Shown here: positions 720 through 7,120 of the stretch, in pieces
Layout of the letters: each line of letters opens with the position of its first letter
Position numbering within the stretch: the stretch's first letter is position 1
Assembly (NCBI GenBank): GCA_013538855.1
Contig: JABXJS010000001.1
Span: 1-35,935 of the forward strand
Length of the DNA stretch: 35,935 bases
Source: Herpetosiphonaceae bacterium
Lineage (GTDB): Bacteria; Chloroflexota; Chloroflexia; Chloroflexales; Herpetosiphonaceae
Direction of reading: 5' to 3'
Position numbers and translations under genes: made by a program
The notes under the pieces: model-generated
Database searches by the model: none
Seen by the model: only the letters and a program-made list of their open reading frames with translations
Told to the model about the DNA's origin: nothing

Positions 720-1448
720 TCACTCCGGCGGCGTGATGTCCTCCCACGCGGTGTGCCACTCCAGCGGCATCAGGCCGCCGATGGGCGCGAGGATGTGCGC
801 GGCGAGGGCCAGCAGCGCCGTCTTGCGCTCGGCGTGGTCGGCGGGCTGCAGGGCCGTGCGCACCAAGGCGGCGGCGGCGGCGTCCCACTGCGCCAGGTCG
901 GCGAGGCGGCGCTTGAGCTTGGCCTGCCAGCGGCCGCTGAGCTGATAGTGCGTGGCGAGCAGGTCGTCGATGATCGTGCAGGTGAGCAGCGTGGCCGTGG
1001 CCGCGTCGCTCGCCCCGATGTCGTCGAGGTCGCGCAGCCAGTCGGCGGGCGCATAGCACTTGCGCCAGATCAAGGCCGGGTCGAGCGGCGCAGGCCCTGC
1101 ATCCCACAGCCGCCGCGCCAGCGCCTGCATGCGCGCCACCGCGCCGTGCGGGTCGTAGACGCTGCGGCCAAAGCTGTACATGTGCTGATCGACGCCGCGC
1201 ACGCTGTCAAAGTAGCGCTCGACCTGCCAGGGTGGGTTGATGAACATCTCAACCTCCAGCCCAGCAACAAGCTGGTTGCGGCGCTGGCGCTGTGGGCGAT
1301 CGATCAGCACGTGCATGTCGAGGTCGCTGCTGGGGCTAGGCGTGCCGTGGATCAGCGAGCCAGTCACGAGCACGCCCAAAAGCTGTGGCCCAAACTCCGC
1401 ATGGAGCTGGGCCACCACCGTTTCAATTACCGCTTCTACGTTGCTCAC
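720..1448 (-). CDS. Nucleotidyltransferase-domain protein (DNA polymerase beta-like fold)
   Basis: A 242-residue protein starting with GTG at 1448. Residues 25-47 hold the nucleotidyltransferase signature: Gly30-Ser31 followed by Asp42-x-Asp44 (GS...SDLDMHV), with Glu67 as a plausible third carboxylate. These residues bind metal and nucleotide in the family that includes aminoglycoside nucleotidyltransferases, MNT antitoxins and many stand-alone enzymes. The C-terminal half is helical and unassigned. The substrate cannot be read from sequence. The start overlaps the stop of the sirtuin-like gene (GTGA), so translation is probably coupled; it is the last gene of a five-gene operon. No HEPN partner is adjacent, which argues against a MNT/HEPN toxin pair. 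Confidence 0.75.
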   Translation of the reverse strand: MSNVEAVIETVVAQLHAEFGPQLLGVLVTGSLIHGTPSPSSDLDMHVLIDRPQRQRRNQLVAGLEVEMFINPPWQVERYFDSVRGVDQHMYSFGRSVYDPHGAVARMQALARRLWDAGPAPLDPALIWRKCYAPADWLRDLDDIGASDAATATLLTCTIIDDLLATHYQLSGRWQAKLKRRLADLAQWDAAAAALVRTALQPADHAERKTALLALAAHILAPIGGLMPLEWHTAWEDITPPE

Positions 1449-2209
1449 TGCTGCTCGCCTGCCTCCTCGAACACATGCACAAGCTGCGGCACCAGCTCGC
1501 TGAGCGAGCCATGCACGGCGTAGTCGGCGAAGATGGTAAACGCCGATGGCGCGGGGTTGATGTCGATCACGAGCGCGCCGTTGCGCTTGGCGTGCAGCGG
1601 CAGCGACGCGGCAGGCTGCACCACCGACTCGGTGCCGATGCACAGAAAGACATCGCAGCTGGTGGCGGCGTCGGCCTCGCGCACGCGCTCCATGGGCACG
1701 CCCTCGCCGTAGAACAGCACATCGGGGCGCAGATAGCCGCCGGTGCGCGGGCAGCGCGGCGGCACATCGCGGGTGTCCCACTCCCACTCGCTGACCACGC
1801 CGCCGTCCTCGGAAGAGATAGTGCGGCGCAGGCAGCCGTGGAACTCGATCAGCTCGCGGCTGCCGGCCATCCAGTGCAGGCCGTCGATGGCCTGCGTGAT
1901 CAGCTTGAAGTGCGGCACGAGCTGCTCCAGGTCCACCAGCGCATAGTGCGCCTGGCTGGGCTGCGTCGGCTCGATCAGCTGCCGTCGATAGGCGAACCAG
2001 TCCCAGACCAGCTTGGGGTTGCGCATAAACGCCTCCACCGTCGCCAGCTCCTGTGGCTCATAGGCGGCCCAGCGCTCGTCGCGCGCCTGCGCCTCGCGGA
2101 ATCCCAAAACGCCGCACTCGCGCGACAGGCCGCCGCCGGTTAGCACGGTAATGGTGCGTGCCGAGTGCAGGCGCTCGAGCACGTGTGTAGGTAGATCAAG
2201 GTCGCTCAC
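1445..2209 (-). CDS. Sirtuin-family (Sir2) protein with degenerate NAD and zinc motifs
   Basis: A 254-residue single-domain sirtuin beginning with GTG. The Rossmann start reads TGGGLSRECGVLGFR (residues 24-38, canonical TGAGIS..SGIPDFR). The second motif is TQAIDGLH (105-112, canonical TQNID.LH), and His124 of the catalytic HG is kept. LRPDVLFYGE (160-169) and the late CIGTES motif are typical. Several key positions differ: GAG to GGG, the Asp of PDFR to Gly36, and the Asn of TQNID to Ala107. Only Cys126 and Cys153 remain where four zinc-binding Cys are expected. The family removes acyl groups from lysine using NAD+, but these losses make normal deacylation doubtful. It overlaps both neighbours by 4 bp, suggesting fixed stoichiometry with the pseudokinase and nucleotidyltransferase. 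Confidence 0.8.
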   Translation of the reverse strand: MSDLDLPTHVLERLHSARTITVLTGGGLSRECGVLGFREAQARDERWAAYEPQELATVEAFMRNPKLVWDWFAYRRQLIEPTQPSQAHYALVDLEQLVPHFKLITQAIDGLHWMAGSRELIEFHGCLRRTISSEDGGVVSEWEWDTRDVPPRCPRTGGYLRPDVLFYGEGVPMERVREADAATSCDVFLCIGTESVVQPAASLPLHAKRNGALVIDINPAPSAFTIFADYAVHGSLSELVPQLVHVFEEAGEQQ

Positions 2210-3690
2210 GGCGAACCCTCCTCTTGGAGCAAACTAAGTGCGACCCAGCCATCGAGTCGCCGATTATTATAGGTTGTTTCAATCCGAATCCAGGTGTTGC
2301 CATCTGCTGCGTGTACATCGTTTGGATCGGGCGCTGTCACGCGTGTATCTTTGGGCAGCGACTCTAGGATGGGCGCGCTGATGCTTGGTGCCGAGCACAC
2401 GTTGGTGTTCTCGACCAGCACCACATAGTTGATCGGCTGCGGCTTGGCATCGCCGGGCAGGTAGGCGCAGGCAAACTCGGGCAGCCATCCGCACGCCCAG
2501 GTCTTGGCCGCGCCGCTCTCGAACCAGTCGCGGCCAAAGGTGAAGCCCCAGTAGCAGCCGCCAGCGAGCACCACCAGCAAGATCAGTCCCACCACACGCC
2601 GCCGGATAAAGCTCAGACAGCCGCGCCGCCGCGCCTCGCGCCGCACCTCGCGCCGCACCTCTTTGCGCAGATCATCGCGCGAGAGCTGCTGCGGCGGCGG
2701 CTGCGGCGGCGGCATCACCGGCCGCGGCTGCTGCATCACGGGAGCGGCGGCCTGCGCTGACGGTGCGCTGCTCGGCGGCGGCAAGTCTTCCGTCGGGCGG
2801 CGGCGCTGGGTGATCGTGCGCCGCGCCTCGCGCATCGTATCGCGGATGGCGGGCATCGGGCGCACCAGCGGCTTGGTCGGAGCCTCCGCCGCCGCATCCA
2901 CTGCAGCAAGATCACGGGCCAGCGACTGCACATCCAGGGTGCGCTGAAACGGATCACGGGCGGCGGCAAGCTGCAGGGCTGCCGCCAGCGAGGGCATAAA
3001 GCTGACCATCTCGTTGTAGAGCGGCGGTACCTCATCGCTCACATGCTTCTGCTGCGCCGCCTGCGGGCTTTGATCGCCCCATGGCCGCTGGCCCAGCATC
3101 ATCTCGTAGCCCAAGAGGCCCAGCGCATAGACCGTTGAGCGCTCAGATGGCGGCTCGCCGCGCACGCGCTCTGGCGCGCGATAGTAGGCCAGCTCGTCGC
3201 GCAGCTCCTGCTGGCTTAGCCACCACGGCTCGGCCAAGATTGGGCGGTTATCTGGCGTCACCAAAATCGCCCCCGAGGCGATCGGCGGCGTTGGCGTCTG
3301 CGTCGTGATCGTGATCGCCACCGCGCCAACAATCTGCCGCAGCATGCGCAGCGCATCGGGCAGCGCCAGCGGCAGCGCAGCGCGTAGCGGCCGCCCATCA
3401 ACCTCCTCGGTAACCATGTACGGCCGCCCGGCCACATCGCCCTGGTCGAACACATCGAGCAGCGCCGGGTGCGCCCGCTTGGCCAGCCCTTGGGCCTCCT
3501 CGGTAAAGCGGCGACGCAGCGCCTCGTTCTCCTGCAGGTCCGGCCGCAAAATGTGCACGAGCACCGGTCGGCCTAGGCGCTCATCGCTGGCCCGGAACAC
3601 TTGCGCCAGCCGATTGTCGCCCAGCCGACTAAAGATCCGATAGCGGTTGTGCAAGAGTGGTAAATTTGGTTGCGCAGGTTGTGTGGTCAT
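2206..3690 (-). CDS. Membrane-anchored pseudokinase with extracytoplasmic SH3b domain
   Basis: A 494-residue protein laid out as a Ser/Thr receptor kinase. A kinase-like domain (about 17-270) is followed by a Pro/Gln-rich linker, an Arg-rich stretch just inside the membrane, one transmembrane helix (about 364-384) and a C-terminal bacterial SH3 domain (about 423-492). The fold is visible from the RYRIFSRLGD start, the YYRAPERVRG segment and YALGLLGYEMMLGQRPW. The catalytic set is missing: the ATP lysine is His46 (VLVHIL), no HRD loop is seen, and the DFG position reads EPW. It should not phosphorylate and may act as a scaffold or sensor binding cell-wall material through SH3b. The ATG at 3690 overlaps the preceding stop (ATGA). 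A longer upstream reading frame exists but lies inside the acetyltransferase gene. Confidence 0.75.
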   Translation of the reverse strand: MTTQPAQPNLPLLHNRYRIFSRLGDNRLAQVFRASDERLGRPVLVHILRPDLQENEALRRRFTEEAQGLAKRAHPALLDVFDQGDVAGRPYMVTEEVDGRPLRAALPLALPDALRMLRQIVGAVAITITTQTPTPPIASGAILVTPDNRPILAEPWWLSQQELRDELAYYRAPERVRGEPPSERSTVYALGLLGYEMMLGQRPWGDQSPQAAQQKHVSDEVPPLYNEMVSFMPSLAAALQLAAARDPFQRTLDVQSLARDLAAVDAAAEAPTKPLVRPMPAIRDTMREARRTITQRRRPTEDLPPPSSAPSAQAAAPVMQQPRPVMPPPQPPPQQLSRDDLRKEVRREVRREARRRGCLSFIRRRVVGLILLVVLAGGCYWGFTFGRDWFESGAAKTWACGWLPEFACAYLPGDAKPQPINYVVLVENTNVCSAPSISAPILESLPKDTRVTAPDPNDVHAADGNTWIRIETTYNNRRLDGWVALSLLQEEGSP

Positions 3691-4142
3691 ACGCTCGCCC
3701 GAACATCGCGCCGCATAACAACATGCGGCCCGATCTCCGGTACATCGAAGGGTTCGCTGACAATCGTGTAGCCTAGCGCGGTGTACAGCGGAAGCGCCGC
3801 TACGCGGGCGTTGCACCAGATCAGCCGACAGCCAAAGCGCTCAGCGAGCGCCTGCTCCAGCCACTCCAGCAGCAGCCGGGCATAGCCGCGCCGCTGCTGT
3901 GTTTGGTCGGTCGCCACGCCGCGCAGCTGCCAGGCATCGGCCCGCTGCTCGCCAGGTGGCGGCTGATGAAAGGCCGAGGCGATGCACACCAGCTGCGCAT
4001 CCACAAACACGCCAACATGCAGCGTGTCGGCGGCAGCGTCGCCAGCGTAGACGAGGTCTTCTATCTGCTGATGCGGGCGGAGGATGCGCTGACGCAAGGG
4101 TCGGGTGGCCGCAGCATCAATTTCGCGCACTGTTGGATGCAT
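3687..4142 (-). CDS. GNAT-family N-acetyltransferase
   Basis: A 151-residue single-domain GNAT. The acetyl-CoA pyrophosphate loop reads QQRRGYARLLLEWL (R-x-x-G-x-A type) and is preceded by the usual beta-4 strand (WQLRGVATD). The C-terminal part (LPLYTALGYTIVSEPF) matches the last strands of the fold. The N-terminal LRQRILRP resembles a subgroup of small uncharacterised GNATs. The acceptor is unknown. The gene begins 3 bases after the methyltransferase stop and overlaps the pseudokinase start by 4 bp, so it is the second gene of the coupled operon. Confidence 0.8.
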   Translation of the reverse strand: MHPTVREIDAAATRPLRQRILRPHQQIEDLVYAGDAAADTLHVGVFVDAQLVCIASAFHQPPPGEQRADAWQLRGVATDQTQQRRGYARLLLEWLEQALAERFGCRLIWCNARVAALPLYTALGYTIVSEPFDVPEIGPHVVMRRDVRASV

Positions 4143-4145
4143 AGA

Positions 4146-4844
4146 TCAATCTTCCCACGGTTTGACCGCTAAGACTAAATCATAGGTGCCTGGCTGCCAC
4201 GGGCGTATCTCCCACTCCGCGCAGCCAAGCTGCTGAAGAAACGCCACCATACGTGATGCTGTCCAGGCCTTGCCCGGCAGCCAGCGCGCATGGCGCGGCG
4301 TCCAGGTGCTGATCAGCAGGGTTCCGCCGGGCTGCAGCACACGCCACATCTCGCGCAGCGCCCGCCGCGGTCGCGGAAAGTACTCCAGCGCTTCGAGACA
4401 CGTCACCGCGCCAAATGTGCCGCTCGCCCAGCGACGTAGCTCGTCGCCTGAGCCTGCGAGCCAGACAACGCGCCCGCTCAAGCCCGCTGCGCGCGCCTTG
4501 GCCGCCGCCCGCTCAAGCATCGCTGGCGTCAGATCCAGCCCATAGATCGCGCCAGTATACCAGGCTTCGCCCGCCAGCAGCAGCGGCACACGCCCGGTGC
4601 CTGTCGCCACATCCAGCAGCGCCGCCTGCGGTCGCCCAAGCAAGGCCACCCGCAGCGGGCCAAGCAGATGCACATGGTCATGGCGCGTCACTGGCGCGCG
4701 CACACGATCGTACACGCCAGCCCCTAGACGATAGATCAGACGCACCACCGGACGACCAAAGTAGGTGCCTTCGCCGATCACGATCATCCAGTAGAAAAGC
4801 GCCAGTGCAACAGCGCTGCCAACAATCCAGCCAATCAGCTTCAT
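4146..4844 (-). CDS. Membrane-anchored class I SAM-dependent methyltransferase
   Basis: A 232-residue protein whose first 25 residues form one hydrophobic helix (IGWIVGSAVALALFYWM), followed by a Methyltransf_11-type Rossmann domain. Motif I is LLDVATGTG (residues 77-84). The acidic residue that ends strand 2 is in YGLDLTP, motif IV lies around TCLEALEYFPRP, and LQPGGTLLIST is the post-IV strand. Such enzymes often methylate lipids, quinones or small molecules, but the substrate is not visible. It is the first gene of the operon. No ribosome-binding site precedes the ATG; instead a TATAAT box ends 7 bases upstream, so the mRNA probably begins at or next to the start codon. Confidence 0.8.
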   Translation of the reverse strand: MKLIGWIVGSAVALALFYWMIVIGEGTYFGRPVVRLIYRLGAGVYDRVRAPVTRHDHVHLLGPLRVALLGRPQAALLDVATGTGRVPLLLAGEAWYTGAIYGLDLTPAMLERAAAKARAAGLSGRVVWLAGSGDELRRWASGTFGAVTCLEALEYFPRPRRALREMWRVLQPGGTLLISTWTPRHARWLPGKAWTASRMVAFLQQLGCAEWEIRPWQPGTYDLVLAVKPWED

Positions 4845-4850
4845 CAGCCG

Positions 4851-4859
4851 ATTATAGCA
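4851..4859 (-). promoter_or_regulatory. Extended -10 promoter of the methyltransferase operon (leaderless start)
   Basis: On the minus strand TGCTATAAT (4859 down to 4851) is a perfect -10 box with the extended TGn element. The A of the ATG (4844) lies 7 bases beyond it, where transcription would start. No convincing -35 box is seen around 4874-4880, which is acceptable for extended -10 promoters. Confidence 0.6.
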
Positions 4860-5902: not shown

Positions 5903-6067
5903 CCGCCCGTCAGCCGCGATGGCCCTGCGCCGCGTTCCCTTCCACCGCCAGCGTGCGGCCACCAGTCGCTGAGCCTTGCAGAACCAAACCGTCGGTGATC
6001 GCCGCCCGCCCGCGCGCCGTAGCCGAGGTCACGCAGCCCGCCCGTCAGCCGCGATTGCCCTGCGCCG
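5903..6067. repeat. 165-bp direct repeat, copy 1
   Basis: Matches 6175-6339 at an offset of 272 bases with about four mismatches over 165 bases. The copies contain GC-rich sub-units that also occur partly at 5861-5938 and 6142-6212, so the region looks like a small, uneven tandem array. It lies between a minus-strand acetyltransferase and a plus-strand gene, where both promoters would be expected. Confidence 0.85.
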
Positions 6068-6174
6068 TGCGCGCTATCCACCCGCTTGCTGGCTGCCCTG
6101 CACTGCCGCATTCTGATGAACCAGACCGCCTGCCTTCACCACCCGCCCGCGCGCCGTAGCCGAGGTCACGCAGC

Positions 6175-6339
6175 CCGCCCGTCAGCCGCGATGGCCCTGC
6201 GCCGCGTTCCCTTCCACCGCCAGCGTGCGGCCGCCAGTCGCTGAGCCTTGCAGAACCAAACCGTCGGTGGTCGCCGCCCGCCCGCGCGCCGTAGCCGAGG
6301 TCACGCAGCCCGCGCGTCAGCCGCGATGGCCCTGCGCCG
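6175..6339. repeat. 165-bp direct repeat, copy 2
   Basis: The second copy of the unit at 5903-6067. The differences are single-base changes, including A/G in the GCGGCC(A/G)CCAG segment and in GGTG(A/G)TCGCC. Confidence 0.85.
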
Positions 6340-6445
6340 CATGCTATTCCGCGAGCACGTGGTGGCCGCCTATCGCCAGCGCTCCCGGCTCCAGCGCATA
6401 TGTGCTAAACTAAGTACCTTGAGCCGACTAGCCCAAGGAGCAATC

Positions 6446-7120
6446 ATGCCCCGTAAGCGTCGCCGCACATATGCAGGCATTCAGCCGCCGGAGCTGCCAA
6501 GCGCCGCATCAAGCAGCGATCCGGCCCCACTTGGCGACACCGCGACCTACCAACAGCAAATCTTGAGCGGCTGGCAGTGTATTGGACAGACAGCCAACGA
6601 CGTGTTATTTGATCACGTGCGCTGTCAGCACAGCAACCTGAGCCAAAGCCAGCTGCGTCTGCTGCAGATTAGCGATGCCCGCTTTGAGACCTGCGATATG
6701 AGCCAGGCAGATTGGGAAAAAGCCCATCTCCAGCGCGTCGAGCTTGATGGCTGCCGCACTGTTGGCCTGAAGCTCATCGCAGCCCAGCTCGATAACTGCG
6801 TCTTTGTTGGCTGCCAGGGCGAGCTAGCCATCTTCTGGCAAAGCGAGTGCCGCGATGTGCGTTTTGAGGAGTGCCAGCTGCGCGAAGCCAACTTCGAGGG
6901 AGCCGACCTGCGCAATGTGGTGTTCAGCCGCTGCGACCTGCAAGGAGCCGATTTTCGCCAAGCCAACCTAGAGAACTGCGACCTGCGCGGCTCCAAGCTC
7001 GATGGCGTGCACATCGGCATCAAAGAGCTACAGGGCGCGATCATCGACCCCACGCAGCTGCTTCAGCTCGCCGGCCTGCTCGGCCTCGATGTGCGCCCGC
7101 CCGACGCTGACGACGAGTAG
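6446..7120 (+). CDS. Pentapeptide-repeat protein
   Basis: A 224-residue protein. AAGGAG sits 5 bases before the ATG at 6446, which fixes the start. After a basic tail (MPRKRRR) and a variable ~40 residues come imperfect pentapeptide repeats from about residue 50 to 200. The clearest run is LREANFEGADLRNVVFSRCD and the following LQGADFRQANLENCDLRG, with the usual A(D/N)LxX pattern. These fold as a right-handed square beta-helix. The class includes DNA mimics that protect gyrase as well as many proteins of unknown role, and nothing here picks one. It is transcribed alone, convergent with the acyl-CoA dehydrogenase operon and separated from it by a hairpin. Confidence 0.85.
   Translation: MPRKRRRTYAGIQPPELPSAASSSDPAPLGDTATYQQQILSGWQCIGQTANDVLFDHVRCQHSNLSQSQLRLLQISDARFETCDMSQADWEKAHLQRVELDGCRTVGLKLIAAQLDNCVFVGCQGELAIFWQSECRDVRFEECQLREANFEGADLRNVVFSRCDLQGADFRQANLENCDLRGSKLDGVHIGIKELQGAIIDPTQLLQLAGLLGLDVRPPDADDE

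Follow-up and report, generated by a model that had tools for sequence, protein, structure and literature searches.

One of the closest described counterparts of the protein discussed here is MviN, a member of the ActPs3 family of Mycobacterium, which together with FhaA exemplifies a membrane pseudokinase acting as a recruiter or scaffold in wall homeostasis (PMC12599244). Seven families of bacterial pseudokinases were distinguished in a 2025 review, none of them described with an HPP motif, an SH3 domain or a sirtuin neighbour, or from Chloroflexota (PMC12599244). We analyzed a stretch of 35,935 nucleotides from a Herpetosiphonaceae bacterium (the entire contig C42, JABXJS010000001.1, of a 6.3 Mb genome; hereafter ‘the window’), in which genes for a methyltransferase (MT), a transmembrane pseudokinase (PK) and a sirtuin (SIR) follow one another on one strand, in the order MT-PK-SIR, with one further gene between MT and PK and another after SIR. 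Our preferred reading, to which we give a probability of roughly 0.4, is that this locus is the form taken in Herpetosiphonaceae by a conserved and undescribed cluster of the order Chloroflexales, in which PK would serve as a receptor and scaffold that sets a protein acylation state together with its neighbours. The features concerned are as follows.

4146..4844, minus strand: MT, a membrane-anchored class I S-adenosylmethionine methyltransferase (UbiE-like), 232 amino acids; Methyltransf_11, E = 2.9e-20
4143-4145, minus strand: 3-base gap between MT and GNAT, read in the sequence
3687..4142, minus strand: GNAT acetyltransferase, 151 amino acids; Acetyltransf_1, E = 2.7e-10
3687..3690, minus strand: ATGA overlap of GNAT stop and PK start, read in the sequence
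2206..3690, minus strand: PK, transmembrane pseudokinase, 494 amino acids; Pkinase 1e-9, PknB-type kinase 1e-42 (Pfam/NCBIfam)
2206..2209, minus strand: GTGA overlap of PK stop and SIR start, read in the sequence
1445..2209, minus strand: SIR, a sirtuin of the pseudo-sirtuin clade described below, 254 amino acids; SIR2 (PF02146), 1.4e-31
1445..1448, minus strand: GTGA overlap of SIR stop and nucleotidyltransferase (NTase) start, read in the sequence
720..1448, minus strand: ANT-like NTase, 242 amino acids; weak ANT(3'')/ANT(9) matches (E ~0.001) and a visible GS...DLD motif

An earlier note on this DNA had described five genes joined by these overlaps and this gap, an arrangement that the sequence bears out. 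Pfam and NCBIfam matches agree with the folds that it assigned to the methyltransferase, GNAT, kinase-like and Sir2 proteins, and support the nucleotidyltransferase weakly (the E value of ~0.001, together with the motif). MT belongs to the ancestral gene set of the cluster and begins with a hydrophobic helix (residues 6–24) that is also present in its relatives.

We searched 80 genomes of Chloroflexales with PK, SIR, NTase, MT, GNAT and two further neighbours (F2 and F3), and called genes in 60 fetched regions. Genes were counted as linked if they lay on the same contig and strand with gaps of less than 1.6 kb; because of contig breaks, the linkage counts are lower bounds. The cluster runs MT-PK-SIR-F2-F3 across four families of the order, with SIR single or in tandem, F2 a GNAT of ~205 amino acids (Acetyltransf_3) and F3 a nucleotidyltransferase of ~182 amino acids (NTP_transf_5). 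MT and PK are linked wherever a genome carries both (22 of 22, from 9 genera in 2 families). F2 and F3 are linked in 43 of 48 genomes, F2 and PK in 51 of 67 (20 genera), and PK and SIR in 39 of 70 (17 genera, all four families); all five genes stand together in genome G076. Median gaps are 30 bp between PK and SIR and 20 bp between SIR and F2. SIR is the sole gene family that adjoins PK in all four families, and in a rough control most other PK neighbours varied from family to family. Linkage over four families at such short distances, with other neighbours less widely shared, speaks for our preferred reading.

We detected PK itself in 72 of 82 Chloroflexales genomes, or 53 of 56 if the good ones alone are counted; G031 has a further copy, cut by a contig end. 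It is evidently inherited vertically, since its phylogeny sorts by family; the gene is single-copy. It also looks restricted to Chloroflexales, because among 400 genomes of the phylum the best match outside the order scored 234 bits, as against 312–677 bits for the 72 orthologues inside it.

Several loci vary in detail. Three genomes of family f3 have a DUF402 protein between the degenerate sirtuin and F2, and a protein whose sequence reads as a PlsC-like acyltransferase, not F2, follows PK-SIR at loci L104–L108 of family f2. One record labelled Candidatus Gracilibacteria (JAAUTF010000002.1) contains all of MT-PK-SIR-F2-F3 and matches G076, a genome placed in Chloroflexales; the label looks wrong.

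The kinase fold of PK lacks the VAIK lysine, the HRD aspartate and the DFG motif in every one of 41 orthologues from 25 genera. The lysine position is occupied by His in 31, Ala in 4, Asn in 3 and Tyr in 2, with one sequence unaligned there (Lys in 0 of 40), and the aspartate position by Pro in 40 and Met in 1; an active kinase paralogue in the same alignment retains all three elements. HPP[IV]SSxN stands in place of HRDxKPxN (TPPI[AG]S in f1, the family that contains Herpetosiphon), and P135, S139, W156 (a Trp in the DFG region) and YRxPE are invariant. Because all 41 proteins are dead yet share HPPISSxN and the invariant Trp, their alignment points to a retained, non-catalytic function.

An AlphaFold2 model of PK (24 sequences, pLDDT 85.7) comprises a kinase fold (residues 11–270), a low-confidence, Pro-rich linker, a helix (338–392) that includes a transmembrane segment at ~366–384, and a C-terminal, SH3-like beta domain (420–490). 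The predicted bilobal kinase fold is closest, among solved structures, to that of PknB (PDB profile match 3e-48; Foldseek 2e-20). The SH3_3 match in the window scores 21.5 bits against a Pfam cut-off of 27, and 37.1 bits in a relative; the domain is built in the window protein with a pLDDT of ~97. Lys and Arg are richer before than after the hydrophobic segment near residue 366 in most PKs, which by the positive-inside rule suggests that the kinase fold lies inside and the SH3-like domain outside. The earlier note's description of PK as a catalytically dead membrane kinase bearing a wall-binding domain is thus upheld, by the loss of all three catalytic elements in 41 of 41 orthologues and by the transmembrane segment and modelled SH3-like domain.

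The sirtuins of the cluster are canonical (GAG[IV]S, TQN, ELHG) in some genera and degenerate in others. In the window GAG has become GGG, TQN has become TQA and GTS has become GTE, while the catalytic His is kept (EFHG for ELHG); the zinc-site cysteines are lost, with one of the usual Cys aligned. This degeneracy had been overlooked, and the NAD-linked chemistry previously ascribed to the window is doubtful with TQN changed to TQA. The degenerate sirtuins, that of the window included, form one clade (92/98 support), which we term pseudo-sirtuins. The Asn of TQN is replaced by A, S or T in all 20 of its members, by one change on the tree, and that single loss falls in the PK-linked sirtuin lineage. 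The catalytic His is replaced by Asn in 16 members (two changes on the tree) and kept in the window and Herpetosiphon copies; GTS and GAG are also altered in most, and the Asp of TQxID is kept. The window protein retains its His, so that the case for its being inactive depends on the TQN change and the remaining substitutions; the change of His to Asn is found in the Roseiflexus copy. From the TQN motif and established knowledge, we take the position that is Ala in the window's TQA to be N345 of yeast Sir2. The N345A substitution in yeast Sir2 abolishes deacetylase activity (PMC5673234).

Active and dead sirtuins also occur side by side. Roseiflexus has one of each in tandem behind PK, and in Herpetosiphon the degenerate copy is followed by a canonical sirtuin, whose nearest relative in the window's genome lies at the end of contig C233. 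The ratio of nonsynonymous to synonymous substitution rates (dN/dS, by the method of Nei and Gojobori) in Herpetosiphon is 0.071 for PK, 0.044 for the pseudo-sirtuin, 0.036 for the active sirtuin and 0.13 for MT. Pairs of Roseiflexus sequences gave 0.15–0.19 for PK, 0.10–0.11 for the active sirtuin, 0.046–0.073 for the pseudo-sirtuin, 0.12–0.15 for F2 and 0.06–0.07 for F3. The pseudo-sirtuin is under strong purifying selection, about equal to that on the active sirtuin in Herpetosiphon and stronger in Roseiflexus; the dead sirtuin is therefore not decaying.

Because both proteins are catalytically degraded and yet strongly preserved, the dead PK and the dead sirtuin probably act as sensors or scaffolds and not as ordinary enzymes. 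We infer a physical complex in which PK would be a receptor and scaffold in place of a phosphorylating enzyme: its outer SH3-like domain would monitor conditions in the cell wall or periplasm, and the kinase fold would hold and regulate the cytoplasmic partners, namely one or two sirtuins, F2 and F3, with the membrane-anchored MT in two families. Together these might set the acylation state of one or a few target proteins. The sirtuin that has lost its catalytic residues would then be a binding or regulatory subunit (a reader of acyl-lysine, NAD(H) or ADP-ribose, or a partner of the active sirtuin) and not a deacylase. The broader proposition, that PK and the pseudo-sirtuin, both non-catalytic, form the sensory and regulatory core of an unrecognised module coupling the envelope to protein acylation across an entire order, is possible but doubtful.

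Several observations weigh against this scheme. The PK cluster is without a sirtuin in six Chloroflexaceae genera, so that the sirtuin is dispensable there; PK stands apart from SIR-F2 in two genomes (G016 and G046); F2-F3 is detached from PK in Herpetosiphonaceae; about half of the genera have fully canonical cluster sirtuins; and the chemistry of F2 and F3 may be unrelated to protein acetylation. We regard the sirtuin-free Chloroflexaceae clusters and the separability of F2-F3 from PK as the strongest objection. As a separate observation, at seven loci of Chloroflexaceae genera whose PK cluster has no sirtuin, a canonical sirtuin lies close to a histidine phosphatase, in a different conserved neighbourhood.

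We consider it a substantial possibility that the cluster reflects conserved synteny of housekeeping genes under a shared promoter with no common mechanism, F2 and F3 acting on small molecules or in translation, SIR in general metabolism, and PK as an independent wall-homeostasis protein like mycobacterial MviN. The members of the cluster do come and go: several genera have no SIR in it, F3 was detected in 48 of 80 genomes and MT in 23 of 80 (two families only), and F2-F3 moves as a pair of its own in Herpetosiphonaceae. Such an account sits less easily with linkage that persists over four families despite turnover of the flanking genes, or with a single degeneration of the sirtuin, within the PK-linked lineage, and its strong constraint thereafter.

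It is unlikely, though not negligibly so, that the degenerate sirtuins are still enzymes, placed at the membrane by PK and with an altered chemistry such as ADP-ribosyl transfer, NADase activity or removal of another acyl chain. The predicted sirtuin fold of the window protein is intact (AlphaFold2 pLDDT 92.9), which together with the retained Asp of TQxID and the His of the window and Herpetosiphon copies would suit an enzyme, but the substitution of the TQN Asn throughout the clade, of the His in 16 members and of GTS or GAG in most argues the other way.

Turning from the sirtuin to the window's own gene complement, its cluster is without F2 and F3, which form a separate pair on contig C25 of the same genome. 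The cluster is split in this way throughout family f1, to which the window's genome belongs, with MT-PK-SIR(-SIR) at one site and F2-F3 at another, 167 kb apart in one genome of that family (G007). (In Herpetosiphon the gene after F3, at L156:6611-7366, encodes a conserved membrane protein with an apparently sortase-like N-terminus.) Homologues of the window's GNAT were found in 14 other genomes, and strong homologues (E <1e-15) of its NTase in only 4, in no case beside PK. Profile comparison detected no kinship between this GNAT and F2 past the superfamily level, and no relation between this NTase and F3. Judged by these comparisons, the GNAT and NTase of the window are lineage-specific local additions unrelated to F2 and F3.

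It is accordingly very improbable that we are looking at the private five-gene operon of one genome, in which GNAT and NTase assumed the roles of the ancestral F2-F3 pair; the cluster does contain these two fold classes both here and in relatives, but the F2-F3 pair is kept on C25, so that there was nothing to replace, and the families share no kinship past the superfamily. For the same reasons (retention of F2-F3 and families that do not match) we rejected an in-place replacement of F2 and F3 by the two local genes. That kinase, Sir2, NTase and methyltransferase folds are all known in defence systems is a point in favour of an anti-phage module, a role the earlier note had allowed for, which we dismiss as most improbable given that PK is near-universal in the order, single-copy and vertical in its tree, not patchy or mobile, and that PADLOC returns generic kinase and methyltransferase matches and none for the Sir2, GNAT and NTase proteins.

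The proposal of an undescribed five-gene system was thus partly right. The exact order MT-GNAT-PK-SIR-NTase was found in the window's genome only, and the neighbourhood search placed the GNAT and NTase homologues of other genomes elsewhere; what relatives conserve is the MT-PK-SIR core, followed by a different GNAT (F2) and a different nucleotidyltransferase (F3). The idea of an undescribed system centred on PK and the sirtuin is now on firmer ground than that note could know, with the window's own GNAT and NTase no longer counted among its members. We found no published description of the cluster in the open-licence PMC literature.

The surroundings of the locus include a second GNAT gene upstream of MT (5685-4906, minus strand; GNAT_acetyltran, PF12746), also previously overlooked. 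It is separated from MT by a 61-base gap and is possibly part of the local transcript; it has no homologue among the 60 fetched regions. Between this gene and a pentapeptide-repeat gene lies a GC-rich region (5930-6350) with segments, for example CTGAGCCTTGCAGAACCAAACCGTCGGTG and CCGTAGCCGAGGTCACGCAGCCCG, that are repeated two or three times. The pentapeptide-repeat protein (6326-7120, plus strand) resembles Qnr/MfpA-type proteins and scores under every curated NCBIfam cut-off.

A dead kinase clade (41 of 41 orthologues, four families) and a constrained clade of dead sirtuins provide rare evidence from nature that these folds have non-catalytic roles in bacteria. The cluster is near-universal in Chloroflexales (the model phototrophs Chloroflexus and Roseiflexus among them), and it offers a concrete, testable set of partners for studying the function of bacterial pseudokinases and the possible use of sirtuins as regulatory subunits.

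Among known systems, the likeness to MADS (the MAD6 kinase and MAD2 methyltransferase) and to PD-T4-6 kinases is a generic kinase and methyltransferase similarity: the MAD6 match scores 66.5 bits against a curated cut-off of 460, and other MADS parts were not seen among the cluster genes. SIR resembles Sir2-Af1/CobB-type deacylases in fold and overall sequence (Sir2-Af1, E = 2.7e-47), whereas its clade has TQ[AST] for TQN and, in most members, GGG for GAG and Asn for His. PknB and other PASTA-type Ser/Thr kinases are closest to PK in fold and sequence and share its layout of kinase, linker, transmembrane segment and outer domain, but PK is without the catalytic Lys, HRD Asp and DFG and has an SH3-like domain where they have PASTA repeats. 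The GLW and ActPs1/2 pseudokinases likewise have three degraded catalytic motifs, and several are membrane-bound; they are mainly from Proteobacteria or Actinobacteria, with GLW for HRD in one of them (PMC12599244). PK does not carry the GLW family motif, having HPP in place of HRD; for ActPs3, the comparison is with the description given in the review. Like PK, MviN spans the membrane and is a bacterial pseudokinase related to Ser/Thr kinases by superfamily; it cannot bind ATP (PMC12599244), but it belongs to Actinobacteria, with an FHA-protein partner and other operon genes, in contrast to the SH3-like outer domain, HPPISS motif and sirtuin, GNAT and NTase neighbours of PK. A pseudokinase scaffold is a known kind of protein, and there is a fair chance that, as a system, the Chloroflexales cluster is outright new.

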